A stretch of 64,000 nucleotides of DNA. Origin: Phycisphaerae bacterium. GTDB taxonomy: Bacteria > Planctomycetota > Phycisphaerae > UBA1845 > UTPLA1. The stretch spans positions 620,001 through 684,000 of the forward strand of contig JAHBXN010000001.1 in the NCBI GenBank assembly GCA_019636475.1. Reading direction: 5' to 3'. This document shows, piece after piece, positions 1-6,200 of the stretch. The notes under the pieces were generated by a model that saw only the letters and a program-made list of their open reading frames with translations, had not been told where the DNA came from and searched no databases. Numbering within the stretch: the stretch's first letter is position 1; every line of letters begins with the position of its first letter. The translations under genes were made by a program, and so were the position numbers.

Positions 1-732
1 CTCGCCGGTCCGACCGGCAGCGGGAAAACCACGACGCTGTATACGGCCCTCAAGGGCATTAACGCCGAGACGCGCAATATCATCACAATCGAGGACCCGG
101 TCGAATACGAACTCGCGAATACGACGCAAATATCGATCGACCCACGTCACAACCTCACCTTCTCTTCGGTGCTCAGCTCAGTCCTGCGCCAGGACCCGGA
201 CGTCATTCTCGTCGGCGAAATTCGTGACCAGGAGACGGCCAAGATGGCGATGCAGGCCGCCACGACCGGTCATCTCGTCCTGACGACGATCCATGCCCGT
301 GACACCGTGGGAACGATCTTTCGCCTGCTCGATCTGGGCGTCGAGCCGTTCCTGATCGCCAGCGCGGTCACGATGTGTATTTCACAGCGGCTGGTGCGGA
401 CCCTCTGCGACAACTGCAAGCGTCCCTTCAAGCCCGACGCGGCCATGATCCGCGCGATGAAAATCGAAGGCCGGCAGTATGGCCATTTCTACGACGCCGT
501 GGGTTGCAAGAAGTGCATGAACGTCGGCTATCGCGGCCGGACGGCGCTTTTTGAAATGCTGATGTTCAATCCACAGCTCCGCGACGTGATTCTCACCAGA
601 CCGACCATTTCCGATATTCGCAAGGCCGCCGGAGAGTGGATGTTTGAAACGCTGACCGAGTGCGGATTTCGGTATGTGATGGAAGGTAAAACCACTTTTC
701 AGGAGGTCGACCGGGTATCGGGAATGGCCTAG
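1..732 (+). CDS. PulE/GspE/PilB-family secretion or pilus ATPase, C-terminal part (cut by window start)
   Basis: Hexameric ATPase that powers a type II secretion system or type IV pilus at the cytoplasmic face of the inner membrane. The frame is open from base 1, so 243 residues of the C-terminal half are visible and the N-terminal domain lies outside. The motifs are canonical: Walker A GPTGSGKTTT at the very edge, the Asp-box region ITIEDPVEY, Walker B DPDVILVGEIRD, His-box TGHLVLTTIHARD, and a zinc finger with CDNCK and CKKCMNVGYRGR. The active enzyme is followed 171 bp later by a degenerate paralogue on the same strand, which suggests the two work together. GspE and PilB cannot be told apart without the N-terminus and the neighbouring genes. 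Confidence 0.95.
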   Translation, partial: LAGPTGSGKTTTLYTALKGINAETRNIITIEDPVEYELANTTQISIDPRHNLTFSSVLSSVLRQDPDVILVGEIRDQETAKMAMQAATTGHLVLTTIHARDTVGTIFRLLDLGVEPFLIASAVTMCISQRLVRTLCDNCKRPFKPDAAMIRAMKIEGRQYGHFYDAVGCKKCMNVGYRGRTALFEMLMFNPQLRDVILTRPTISDIRKAAGEWMFETLTECGFRYVMEGKTTFQEVDRVSGMA

Positions 733-903
733 CCAGTGTCAGGGCGTCCGCCCCGGCGGGACCGCACAACGCCCGAAAACCAGTCCGCCAGGGTTGAAGC
801 CTGCAATCGCCTTTTGCCGTTCCAATCTCGGCGGTCATTCCTTACAATCATTCGATTCAAGCCGACCGAAACCGAGCACCAGACCTGAAACCGAAAAACG
901 CTA

Positions 904-2601
904 ATGACAGACCAATTTGTCCCTGACCGACTCGTTTCGCCCTTGCTCGCGGCGCTGCCGACCGACGAGGGGGGCTATTTCGCGATCTGGAAGATCATCA
1001 TCTACGCGTTGTGCGTCGTCCTCTGGGCGCACACGGCGGCGTGGTCGGATAAAGACTTGCGCCTGCTCCGGGTCCCACTGGGGTTCTGGGTGCCAGCGAT
1101 CTTTTTTTCGGGCGTGCTCGGCCTCGTGCTCTGGCTGGTCATTCCTCTTTACTTTGTCGGCATCCTGATCTTCGCCGTGACGTTCGGTCCGGCGGCTATT
1201 TCATATGTCGTGTTTCGGAATCGCCGCGTGGCTCCGGCCAAGACCGTTTTGACATCCGCGCACATCAAGCGAATCGCCTCGGGGCGATCGAAAGAGAGCA
1301 CGGAGGAGGCCCTCAGCGGCAAAGACCGCACGCGCATCAAAGGACCGGACGGTAAGCAGCCGGCCTGGCCGACGGATCCGACTGAGCACGCGGCGTACCA
1401 GGCGACGCAGGACCTGCTGTTCGACTCAATCTGGCGGCGTGCGAGCGATGTGCTGATTGACATGATTCCCAACGAGCCGCTCAAGATCATGTACAAAATC
1501 GACGGAGTCGATCGCACGCGGGATCCGCTCGACCCGGAAACCGCGCCGCGCGTCATCGGCCATCTGAAGCGCATCTCGGGGCTCAATGTTGAGGAACATC
1601 GTCGCCCGCAACAGGGCAAGTTCAAGGCGACCATCGGCGCTGGAGCCGGCGCGGAGCGGACGGTGGATGTCGATGTGAAAACGTCGGGCAGCACCGCGGG
1701 CGAGCGAATGCTCCTCAAGATGTTCTCAGAGGAAGCGAAATTCCGGATTCCTGATCTGGGGTTCACCAAGGCGCAACTGCCCGTATTTGAGGAAGCGATT
1801 CAACAGCCCAAGGGTGTCGTCATCGTAAGCGGCCCCCGCGGCAGCGGTGTTACGAGCAGCCTTTACGCGATCCTCCGCTCGCACGACGCCTTCATGCAGA
1901 ACATCCACTCGCTCGAATTGTCCAAATCAATGGACCTCGAGAACATCACTCAACACGTCTACGACAGCTCAGACGGCACGGTCAGCTTCGGTCGTCGATT
2001 CCGATCGATCCTTCGGACCGAGCCGGACATCGTCATGGCGGGCGACACTCCCGATGCGGAGACGGCGGCCCTTGCGGCGGCAGCAGGCCGCCAGGGCAAA
2101 AAAGTCTATCTGGGCATGAACGCGAGCGACACATTCGTGGCACTGCGGCGATACCTGCAAAGCGTCAACGACAACGCCCTCGCCGCATCAAGCCTCATCG
2201 CGATTACCAGCCAGCGTCTGGCGCGCGTACTCTGTGCGCAATGTCGACGCGCCTACAAGCCGGACCCGAACCTGCTGAAGAAGGCCAACCTGGCTGAGAA
2301 TGAGAATCGCCCATTTTACAAGCCGCCCAATCCCGACGAGATCGAGGTCGATAAACAAGGTAATCCGATACTCTGTCCGGCCTGCCAGGGATCGGGATAC
2401 ATCGGACGGACGGCGATCATCGAGTTGTTCGTGCCGGATCAGGAAATCCGCAACATGGTTGCGCAAGGCGCGCCGCTGCCAAGCATCAAGGCGGAGGCTC
2501 GCAAACGCGGCATGCTTTACCTCCAGGAAGTCGGCTTGCACAAAGTGTATGAGGGCCAGACGGCGATTGCCGAAATCCTCCGCGTAACCAAGGAAGCCTG
2601 A
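904..2601 (+). CDS. Membrane-anchored, degenerate PulE/GspE-type ATPase (probable pseudo-ATPase)
   Basis: A 565-residue paralogue of the preceding ATPase. Residues about 25-110 hold two or three hydrophobic segments, which ordinary GspE/PilB proteins lack. The ATPase core begins near residue 160. The Walker A position reads GPRGSGVTSS (residues about 310-319), so the invariant lysine is valine. The Walker B region reads EPDIVMAGDTPDAET, with the usual GEIRD lost, and the His-box reads GMNASD without histidine. The C-terminal zinc finger (CAQCRR and CPACQGSGYIGR) and the flanking fold are kept. The ORF is intact, so this is not simple gene decay. I infer a protein unable to hydrolyse ATP that may tether or regulate the active motor. 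ATG start; no strong ribosome site seen. Confidence 0.9.
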   Translation: MTDQFVPDRLVSPLLAALPTDEGGYFAIWKIIIYALCVVLWAHTAAWSDKDLRLLRVPLGFWVPAIFFSGVLGLVLWLVIPLYFVGILIFAVTFGPAAISYVVFRNRRVAPAKTVLTSAHIKRIASGRSKESTEEALSGKDRTRIKGPDGKQPAWPTDPTEHAAYQATQDLLFDSIWRRASDVLIDMIPNEPLKIMYKIDGVDRTRDPLDPETAPRVIGHLKRISGLNVEEHRRPQQGKFKATIGAGAGAERTVDVDVKTSGSTAGERMLLKMFSEEAKFRIPDLGFTKAQLPVFEEAIQQPKGVVIVSGPRGSGVTSSLYAILRSHDAFMQNIHSLELSKSMDLENITQHVYDSSDGTVSFGRRFRSILRTEPDIVMAGDTPDAETAALAAAAGRQGKKVYLGMNASDTFVALRRYLQSVNDNALAASSLIAITSQRLARVLCAQCRRAYKPDPNLLKKANLAENENRPFYKPPNPDEIEVDKQGNPILCPACQGSGYIGRTAIIELFVPDQEIRNMVAQGAPLPSIKAEARKRGMLYLQEVGLHKVYEGQTAIAEILRVTKEA

Positions 2602-2674: not shown

Positions 2675-4489
2675 GTGACTGCGATGCTTTTTTCTCTCGT
2701 CGTGTTTCTCATGGTCGTACTGGTTGGAGCCTTCTGGACCTATCAGGGCTTCTTCAGCGCGCTGATCATGTTCTTTGAGTCGGTGATTGCCTGCATGCTG
2801 GCTTTCGGCTTCTTCGAACCGGTCGCCGGAATGGCTGACGGTTCGCTCGGCGGCCCCGGAATCGAGCAGCCAGTCAGCTTCATGGTCATCTTCCTTGCCG
2901 CCCTGGGGATCATGCGCACAGCAACGGATAAATTGATTCACGGGACCGTCACGTTTCCTCCCGCCGTCGATCGCGCTGGCGCGGCTGTGGCAGGATTCTT
3001 CGCAGGGATGATCATCATCGGGAGCACATTGACAGCGATCCAGATGTTTCCGATCGGTTCCGCGATGTTCGGCTTTGAACGCTATTCGGTCGATGCCAAT
3101 GGCCGCACGCGAAAACACAGTCTGGGTGTTGTTCGACCGGACGAATTTGTCTGCTGGCTGGTGTCGGCCTTGTCCAACGATCGTTTCGGGGGCGACGTGC
3201 GATTCTCGGAATCGAAGCCGAACTACATTCAGTCACTTTATTCGTCCCGCGCGGTTCCGGCGAGCGAAGAGCGCATCTTCGTCAAACCCGGCGACATCAA
3301 AGTCAATGCCATGTGGCAAGCAAGTGAGATCGACAAACCCACGCACGGAGTGGAAGACAACACGCTGGTCCGCAACTATGCGTCCCATGGCCCCGAGGGA
3401 GCCAACACGACCTTCCTCATCTGCAATGTGTCGATCAACAAAGGCGCTTCCGGCGAAAAGTCGAATGGGGAAATCCGATTCCGTGTTCCGCAATTCAGGC
3501 TGGTTGGCCCGCCGCGACAGGATGGCGTTGGCGGCCCGCCATCGGTCTACATGGCCTGCGGCATGACCGACCTTTATACGCACCGCAAGCTCGGACCGAC
3601 GGCAGTGACGACGGATCAGCGAAAGCGGCTCTGCCTGTTTGGGCCGCTCACGGACTTCATCCTCGGAGACAAGTTCACGAACGTCGTGTCGGATGGCGAC
3701 AGTTTCAAGTTTGATGTCGCGTTCGAAGTGCCTCAGGACTTCCAGCCGTGGTATCTGGAGTTCAAGCGCGGTGGTCGCTTCGATTTGACGGGCAAGAAGC
3801 TATTGAAGGAGCCGCCGTCGTATGCGTCACGTCCCCTTGGTCAGGGCGGCAAGCAGGGCAAAGTCAAGCGGCAGGAGAATAAGCTCGTTGGCGCAGCGCC
3901 CGGAGGAGCCCTTCACGTCGCCGATGCAATTGAAGAACGCACCGGGGTGTCGGATGACATTCCGATCCCCCTTGAAAAGAATGACCCTGTGATTGCAAAG
4001 CACCTGTTCCAGGGCAAGCTCGGTGGTGATGATTGTCAATTCTGGTACGAGCCAAAGCCGTATGTGCTGGAGCCGAGCGATCGGGTCGAGAAATTCTCTG
4101 TGCCCGAGGACAAGCGAATGGTCCAGATCGGTGCGGAAGTTCTCAAGCAGAGCAATATGTACTCCCGCGCCATCGGGTTCGCCAACCGCGTGACGGCGCA
4201 GATCCAGATCACGGACACGGAAGGCAACGCCTACTTCGCCATCGGGCAATATGCCGCCGTTGAAATCGAGGGCACCTTCAAGATCGAGATCCAGTACTAC
4301 CCGAACGCCGAGGTTCCCGAACGCTGCCTGAAGAAGCCGACGAAGGTCACCCACAGCCTAATGACAAAGGCCGGCCCCGAGAACACGCGGTTCGGATACC
4401 TGTTCCTCGTTCCTCCAGGCGTGAAGATTGTCAGCTTCAATGCGGGCAGCGGGAAGTCGCAGGAACTGGACATCGAGGTACCGAACTAA
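2675..4489 (+). CDS. CvpA-like membrane protein with large soluble C-terminal region
   Basis: A 604-residue protein whose first 130 residues contain four hydrophobic segments (about residues 5-23, 28-47, 65-82 and 100-120). Their layout resembles CvpA, a small membrane protein linked to colicin V production and envelope function. The remaining 470 residues are soluble, beta-rich in appearance, with no motif I recognise. It follows the degenerate secretion ATPase by 73 bp on the same strand and precedes an HtrA protease, so co-expression is likely. Start codon is GTG at 2675; ATG at 2684 is an equally possible start. Function unknown; the CvpA link is from the membrane layout only. Confidence 0.8.
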   Translation: MTAMLFSLVVFLMVVLVGAFWTYQGFFSALIMFFESVIACMLAFGFFEPVAGMADGSLGGPGIEQPVSFMVIFLAALGIMRTATDKLIHGTVTFPPAVDRAGAAVAGFFAGMIIIGSTLTAIQMFPIGSAMFGFERYSVDANGRTRKHSLGVVRPDEFVCWLVSALSNDRFGGDVRFSESKPNYIQSLYSSRAVPASEERIFVKPGDIKVNAMWQASEIDKPTHGVEDNTLVRNYASHGPEGANTTFLICNVSINKGASGEKSNGEIRFRVPQFRLVGPPRQDGVGGPPSVYMACGMTDLYTHRKLGPTAVTTDQRKRLCLFGPLTDFILGDKFTNVVSDGDSFKFDVAFEVPQDFQPWYLEFKRGGRFDLTGKKLLKEPPSYASRPLGQGGKQGKVKRQENKLVGAAPGGALHVADAIEERTGVSDDIPIPLEKNDPVIAKHLFQGKLGGDDCQFWYEPKPYVLEPSDRVEKFSVPEDKRMVQIGAEVLKQSNMYSRAIGFANRVTAQIQITDTEGNAYFAIGQYAAVEIEGTFKIEIQYYPNAEVPERCLKKPTKVTHSLMTKAGPENTRFGYLFLVPPGVKIVSFNAGSGKSQELDIEVPN

Positions 4490-4598
4490 CCTGGTCCGAG
4501 CGATCTGTGAGCGCGTCCTGAGCGCCGCGCTCGAGGTTCCCGCCCCTGTGCAAGGCCCACTGTGGGCACTCGGTACTTTCGGATGGAGCCGATGGACC

Positions 4599-6200
4599 GT
4601 GAGCAACTTTCAGTCAGATCAAAATCCGCGTGAGCACGTCGTTCTATTCCAACGGGCGTCGTGGAACCGCGCGCCGTCTGACCGACGCCCGTTGATTCGT
4701 CAGCGTCGCCGGATGGGACATGGTCTGGGATGCGCGGCATGTGCCGCAGCCATCGGATTTCTGTCCTGCCTTCCACGGACCGCGGCCGAAGACGGCTCGC
4801 CGCCCGAATCACCGACGACGAGCCGCTCGACATCTCAACCGGCCGGGGAACCGGCTGCCGAAGAGACGCCGGGAACTAACGACATCGCCATCCTGCTCGA
4901 AGGCGAGGATCTGCTCCGCCGGGTTCAAAACGCCGTTTCCTCGCTTGTTCGAAAAGTCGAGCCCAGCGTCGTAACCATTCAGGCCGATCGCAATCCGTCC
5001 GGGCTTGGGCAACGCGACGATTGGGCCCCGCGCGCGTGGATCAGTACCGGCGCCGGTGTGATAATCCGCGACGACGGCATGATCCTCACCAGCCAGCACG
5101 TCATCGACAAAGCGACACGAATCAACGTTGTTCTACACGACGGCCGCTCCATCCGAGCCATGCCCATCGCCGAGGATCGCCGTGCTGATCTGGCGGTGAT
5201 CCGGATTCAGTCGGAAAATCTACGCGCGGCGGACCTGGCGGAGGACGACTCGGCGCGGCGCGGCCACATCGTCGTCGCGCTGGGAAATCCACTTGGGCTT
5301 TCGGGCGACGGACAGGCAGCCGTCAGCCATGGGATCATCAGTGCGATCGGACGCCCGCTTCCGGAGAACTTCGGCCGTGACGAAGACCGGTATTACGGCG
5401 ACATGATTCAGACGACGGCGCCGATCAATCCGGGCAATTCGGGCGGCCCCCTCATTGATGTGCGCGGCCGGGTGATCGGCATCATCACGGCGGTCAGCAC
5501 GCGGTCAGACGGTCACGACGGCATCGGTTTCGCAGTGCCGATCAACCGACACACGCGATCCATCATCAATAAGCTCCTCCGCGGCCAGCAGGTCGAATAT
5601 GGCTATCTGGGGGTGGAGGTAGAGCCGATCGATGAACGACGGCGCGCGGTGGCGGCCCTGCCGTCCGGCGAGGGCGTGGTCATCACGACCGTGTTCCCGG
5701 GCGGCCCGGCGGAGCGTGCCGGCGTTCGCGGAGGGGACGTCGTGGCGAGCGTCAACGGCGAGGCGATCAAGTCGGTGGAGCACTTCGTCCGAACAATCGG
5801 CTCACTCGGTCCGAACCATGTGGTCGGCCTGAACTATGTGCGTAACGGCAAGCAACGAACCGCAAGAATCACGCTGGTACGGCGGCCATCCGCGGATCCC
5901 AAGCCGCTGCCGGATGTGATGATTTCGTTCCGTGGCGCGGAACTTGGGACGGTGCCGCAGTCAACACGACTGATCGCGAACCTGCCGGACAACGCGCTGC
6001 TGGTTCTGCGAGTGGATGCGGATTCCCCGGCCGACCGATCGGGCCTGACGCCCGGCGACATCATCGTGCGTATCAACGGCCAACCGCTCACCGAGGAATC
6101 GATCTCGGCGCTCAAAGAGGACGGCGCCGACGTATTGCTGGGAATGGGCAACGGTGGGTCGGTCGTCGTGAGCAGCCGTCGCGGCCGCCCTTCGAGATAA
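4599..6200 (+). CDS. HtrA/DegP-type trypsin-like serine protease with two PDZ domains
   Basis: Exported envelope protease or chaperone that degrades misfolded proteins. With the start used here, the catalytic triad is His167 (TSQHVI), Asp197 (RADLAVIRI) and Ser281 (NPGNSGGPLID). Two PDZ domains follow (about residues 320-430 and 445-525), the first with a clear GYLGVEVEPI start. A hydrophobic stretch preceded by RQRRR forms a signal peptide or anchor at about residues 40-55. The start is uncertain: GTG 4599 has GGAG ten bases upstream, TTG 4692 and ATG 4713 give a shorter leader but no ribosome site, and the open frame runs up to 4428 inside the previous gene. Position after the CvpA-like gene suggests one envelope operon. 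Confidence 0.9.
   Translation: MSNFQSDQNPREHVVLFQRASWNRAPSDRRPLIRQRRRMGHGLGCAACAAAIGFLSCLPRTAAEDGSPPESPTTSRSTSQPAGEPAAEETPGTNDIAILLEGEDLLRRVQNAVSSLVRKVEPSVVTIQADRNPSGLGQRDDWAPRAWISTGAGVIIRDDGMILTSQHVIDKATRINVVLHDGRSIRAMPIAEDRRADLAVIRIQSENLRAADLAEDDSARRGHIVVALGNPLGLSGDGQAAVSHGIISAIGRPLPENFGRDEDRYYGDMIQTTAPINPGNSGGPLIDVRGRVIGIITAVSTRSDGHDGIGFAVPINRHTRSIINKLLRGQQVEYGYLGVEVEPIDERRRAVAALPSGEGVVITTVFPGGPAERAGVRGGDVVASVNGEAIKSVEHFVRTIGSLGPNHVVGLNYVRNGKQRTARITLVRRPSADPKPLPDVMISFRGAELGTVPQSTRLIANLPDNALLVLRVDADSPADRSGLTPGDIIVRINGQPLTEESISALKEDGADVLLGMGNGGSVVVSSRRGRPSR

Follow-up and report, generated by a model that had tools for sequence, protein, structure and literature searches.

A membrane-anchored, apparently catalytically dead relative of the GspE/PilB ATPases encoded beside a CvpA-like gene in Planctomycetota

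INTRODUCTION

The closest described relatives of the protein analysed here are the PilB, GspE and PilF ATPases of the pilus and secretion motor superfamily (T2SSE, PF00437). A second comparison is offered by PilT and PilU, which form separate homohexamers; in Vibrio PilU retracts pili in the presence of a Walker-dead PilT, and does not do so when PilT is absent (PMC6821130, PMC6762196). The third is the colicin V production protein CvpA (PF02674).

The DNA analysed (the window) is a stretch of 64,000 nucleotides from a Phycisphaerae bacterium (contig JAHBXN010000001.1, positions 620,001 to 684,000). It encodes a GspE relative, here termed mGspE, whose fold and superfamily are already known. 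The C-terminal 400 aa fold as in PilB, GspE and PilF (PilF 5oiu, Z 41, 2.5 Å over 382 residues), with ∼30% identity and a tetra-cysteine zinc module. By contrast, three membrane helices replace the usual N-terminal domain, and the Phycisphaerae proteins lack the Walker-A lysine and the His box. As with PilT and PilU there are two related motor-family proteins that may act as paired rings, and one of the two is possibly dead for hydrolysis. In that system, however, the dead state was made in the laboratory and both proteins are of PilT type, whereas mGspE is naturally dead, anchored in the membrane and of PilB type. The neighbouring gene product shares the four-helix N-terminal membrane domain of CvpA, but here this is fused to ∼470 aa of beta-rich domains and linked to a gene of the motor family. 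A search of the open-access literature, in which absence is weak evidence, gave no account of a GspE/PilB family that is anchored in the membrane or dead by nature, or of the mGspE module, in keeping with the original prediction that the arrangement is not a described one.

RESULTS

Organization of the locus

In the genome of the window (G000, contig C1) the genes of this locus run consecutively on the plus strand, and the window begins within that series. The order is PilT, FHA-GspE, mGspE, CvpA-like and HtrA-like, with window coordinates unless a contig is given:

G000:C1:617684-618871, upstream of the window, plus strand: PilT-family ATPase, 396 aa (TIGR01420, 409 bits against a cut-off of 319)
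1-732, plus strand: 3′ end, 243 codons, of the gene for a GspE/PilB-type ATPase with an FHA domain (FHA-GspE); GPTGSGKTT, GEIRD and HAR are intact
904-2601, plus strand: mGspE, 565 aa, membrane-anchored and, on its residues, catalytically dead GspE/PilB relative (reading frame, Pfam, model and residue mapping)
2675-4489, plus strand: CvpA-like gene, PF02674 N-terminal domain with four transmembrane helices followed by ∼470 aa of beta-rich domains
4428-6200, plus strand: HtrA/DegP-like protease carrying two PDZ domains; the position of its start codon is uncertain

The whole FHA-GspE gene (573 aa, G000:C1:619011-620732) begins 990 bases before the window does, so that its N-terminal FHA domain is encoded outside it.

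Structure and active-site residues of mGspE

The reading frame of mGspE is uninterrupted. Residues 170-560 match Pfam T2SSE with E 2e-55 (188 bits against a cut-off of 24.9), and this together with the PilB/GspE fold places the protein in the PF00437 superfamily. The models for GspE (TIGR02533) and PilB (TIGR02538) equivalogs give 226.5 and 217.8 bits against cut-offs of 630 and 676 respectively. The AlphaFold model has a mean pLDDT of 92, and its C-terminal part superimposes on Thermus PilF and Geobacter PilB with Z ∼41 and an rmsd of 2.2-2.6 Å over ∼380 residues. The roles of individual residues were assigned by mapping onto PilB of Geobacter metallireducens (roles as in PMC5424180). The principal elements, all on the plus strand, are:

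985-1221: three predicted transmembrane helices, residues 28-55, 62-79 and 83-106 (AlphaFold model, hydropathy and the A2 profile described below)
1831-1860: degenerate Walker A, GPRGSGVTSS, residues 310-319, with the lysine replaced by V316
2041-2055: GDTPD in place of GEIRD, residues 380-384, with catalytic Glu395 replaced by D381
2098-2121: former HIS box, with His413 and His420 replaced by K399 and N406
2233-2385: tetra-cysteine zinc module, Cys444, 447, 491 and 494, retained

Glu357 in the ASP-box of PilB is replaced by S342, the arginine fingers R271 and R286 by D257 and K272, and Thr327 of the closed interface by R312. The entire set of residues of a functional GspE/PilB ATPase is therefore replaced in the window protein, with the zinc module in place; each of its cysteines is present in at least 112 of the 113 family members compared. 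R441 is also kept, and is the equivalent of PilB R455, which makes an inter-chain contact (PMC5424180). On this residue mapping mGspE of the window appears to be a catalytically dead pseudoenzyme, in which every residue known to take part in ATP hydrolysis is replaced. Its N-terminus probably lies outside, with the part having the ATPase fold in the cytoplasm. The original prediction of a dead, membrane-tethered GspE paralogue with an intact reading frame and conserved zinc cysteines, next to a gene with intact active-site motifs, is thus upheld.

Distribution and selection

Full-length orthologues of mGspE are found in 39 of 41 genomes, comprising that of the window and 40 relatives from the same order; the two genomes lacking it are 75% and 80% complete. 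All 39 copies have Val, Ile or Leu where the Walker-A lysine would be. A2, a profile built on the N-terminal domain with the three-helix anchor that is the hallmark of the family, was used to search more widely. This returned one copy per genome in at least 83 of 392 Planctomycetota genomes, a lower bound based on the best 10 candidates scored in each genome. Sixteen genomes negative in the scan were checked in full, and contained no match extending to the mGspE N-terminal domain. The window protein has the features of the family, namely the N-terminal three-helix domain, a single copy and a CvpA-like neighbour.

From its named relatives in the genome collection, the window's family falls in the Phycisphaerae. 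Further members occur in Sedimentisphaerales, Planctomycetales, Gemmataceae and Pirellulales. Outside Planctomycetota, the phylum to which a Verrucomicrobia MAG belongs was scanned, and 2 of the 241 genomes gave weak partial matches, one of them in a GspE-like protein.

For close pairs of mGspE genes dN/dS is 0.02-0.15 (NG86; synonymous changes are near saturation in some pairs), and 41 columns are invariant across 38 divergent orthologues. Dead mGspE is kept under strong selection in whole lineages. Two checks suggested with the original prediction, retention of the paralogue in relatives and conservation of both the lysine loss and the membrane segments, come out in its favour in this order sample.

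Active relatives and the loss of catalysis

All 75 Phycisphaerae copies are without the Walker-A lysine, 11 of them having arginine at this position. The same is true of all 12 copies from a Pirellulales-like group (f80, f89, f106, L091, L098 and L120), giving 87 copies in total. Twenty-six copies outside these two groups all have a complete active site; they come from a Planctomycetales MAG, a Gemmataceae MAG, the large group f39, and f46, f60, f107 and f108. Homologues with a normal Walker A had been named as a refutation of the original prediction. These active copies carry the same membrane anchor, and most of their loci have the CvpA-like neighbour. In one further copy (L220) the Walker-A lysine is kept and the other motifs are degenerate.

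The His box is lost in every Phycisphaerae copy, and the catalytic glutamate and arginine fingers in most. In some, one catalytic residue, an arginine finger or an arginine in place of the Walker-A lysine persists, and copies with such leftover residues might conceivably bind nucleotide weakly. When the catalytic columns are left out of the alignment, the trees place the active lineages at the base, so that an active membrane-anchored motor is likely to have been the ancestral state. The change from motor to pseudoenzyme would have happened once or twice; a 62-row tree with long stems favours two losses, and a single dead clade is not rejected (AU p 0.58). Sequence and model show that the fold, the zinc module and the inter-subunit arginine were retained through the loss of catalysis.

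Neighbouring genes

The most constant neighbour of mGspE, missed in the original prediction, is the CvpA-like gene. It lies directly downstream at 78 of the 83 dead loci and at 23 of the 25 active ones. In four of the five dead loci without it the same place is taken by the gene of a diverged protein, judged by eye to have multiple transmembrane segments. The N-terminal four-helix domain scores 30.2 bits with PF02674 (cut-off 29.3), and the beta-rich part of ∼470 aa gave no significant match in the PDB. In most Planctomycetia loci the CvpA-like protein is merely ∼200-290 aa long. Almost every locus of the window's family has an HtrA-like gene 3′ of the CvpA gene. The MarP protein of mycobacteria is a fusion of CvpA with a protease, which these CvpA-like and HtrA-like neighbours resemble.

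A PilT gene is adjacent on the upstream side at 63 of the 79 dead loci and at 11 of the 23 active ones, and Walker A and B are intact in all 78 neighbouring PilT proteins checked. Active f39 genomes without an adjacent PilT have one of 44-50% identity elsewhere in the genome. Five genomes, each at least 93% complete (G017, G021, G024, G030 and G031), contain mGspE and no member of the PilT subfamily; the CvpA gene lies beside mGspE in four of these, and the fifth has a fragment at a contig end. Since PilT is non-adjacent in 16 of the 79 dead loci, and the subfamily is missing from these five near-complete genomes, PilT is a non-obligate partner of mGspE. The predicted live neighbour is thus usual in the form of PilT, though not universal.

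FHA-GspE is the sister clade of mGspE (support 100/99). It adjoins mGspE in just six loci, that of the window and those of five relatives, all in family f1, and among the sampled genomes of the order it is confined to families f1 and f5. Within f1, PilT and FHA-GspE are paired, often at a distance from the mGspE-CvpA pair. The original proposal that the dead protein is always next to its active paralogue does not hold for FHA-GspE, which is missing from most other families, and the gene distribution rules it out as an obligate partner.

A BLASTP search of 115 mGspE loci found no PilC-like reading frame. The GspF/PilC gene closest to this locus in the window genome lies on the opposite strand, ∼17 kb upstream of PilT. 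The same genome contains further intact GspE/PilB-type genes, and GspF is encoded close to some of them. Two GspF/PilC genes (G000:C1:599630-600598 and G000:C5:278666-279688) have no GspE match close by, and the C5 contig has none at all.

DISCUSSION

The mGspE module consists of the CvpA-like protein, mGspE and usually an active PilT, to which an active FHA-GspE is added in the window's family. By analogy with the PilT of Vibrio, needed by PilU even when dead for hydrolysis, dead mGspE may be a non-catalytic ring in the membrane that serves a live PilT-type motor as its docking site on the CvpA protein, and we give this a probability of roughly one half. Dead mGspE subunits would assemble with one another into a membrane-fixed ring and bind the CvpA-like protein. 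A live PilT ring (in the window's family perhaps both PilT and FHA-GspE) would dock on the mGspE ring, and pass ATP-driven movement through it. We infer the formation of the ring, its contacts with CvpA and PilT, and the transfer of force. The former engine is now probably a structural part of an undescribed machine. A broader and more tentative suggestion is that PilT, mGspE and the CvpA-like protein make up a planctomycete envelope machine having neither pilins nor PilC, where a membrane-embedded GspE ring (active or dead), and not a platform protein, might couple the PilT-type motor to the periplasmic beta domains of CvpA.

The original prediction allowed for a mixed hexamer. In such a ring dead mGspE subunits would alternate with live FHA-GspE subunits, forming joint active sites, and would anchor the live subunits and adjust their activity. 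The sister relationship of the two proteins, their adjacency in this genome and five relatives, and the match of the AlphaFold core of the dead form to PilB (Z 41) are all consistent with this. Against it, the dead form is class-wide and FHA-GspE is restricted to f1 and f5 in the order sample, and the nearest precedent, PilT with PilU, consists of separate homohexamers (PMC6821130). Moreover, the arginine fingers that act in trans are lost as well as Walker A, so that every mixed interface would be inactive and the active site of the neighbour could not be completed. Donation of an arginine finger in trans is ruled out for the window protein, where both fingers are replaced. A heterohexamer with shared active sites is therefore quite unlikely, and the loss of both elements favours a separate non-catalytic ring or scaffold. 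A membrane-bound pseudoenzyme that senses a ligand or assists assembly of CvpA, independently of any motor and without a docking ring, would account for the CvpA-like gene being the most constant neighbour, and for the mGspE-CvpA pair being kept in near-complete genomes without the PilT subfamily. Yet adjacency to PilT at most loci over a great evolutionary distance, and the existence of active family members, point to a motor context, and we regard the sensor or assembly factor as possible though doubtful.

Homology and fold, together with matches to the NCBIfam GspE and PilB models, might suggest an ordinary assembly ATPase of type IV pili or type II secretion with unusual motifs. This is very improbable, for the matches (226 and 218 bits) fall far below the curated cut-offs, catalytic residues are missing, none of the 115 loci has a PilC-like gene, and intact GspE/PilB-type genes, some of them near GspF, occur elsewhere in the genome. 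Loss of the catalytic residues would also be expected of a functionless duplicate decaying under relaxed selection. Unless the estimates of selection are in error, this is ruled out by the dN/dS values and the conservation, including the invariant columns and the conserved operon position, with the reading frame intact in every genome.

As a docking ring or otherwise, mGspE is apparently a natural, lineage-wide pseudoenzyme of the pilus and secretion motor superfamily, and the active relatives of the same architecture open the step from motor to structural part to direct study. The module appears to be an undescribed planctomycete one, in which a GspE fold is embedded in the membrane next to a CvpA protein. 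The concept of a dead ring acting as the coupler for a live one, so far derived from an engineered dead PilT, becomes testable.

A further example of FHA-GspE is located at L039:11011-12732. At G007:C7:52976-54694 an FHA-GspE orthologue with an in-frame TGA adjoins an intact gene for dead mGspE; this is possibly a broken copy or a sequencing error.
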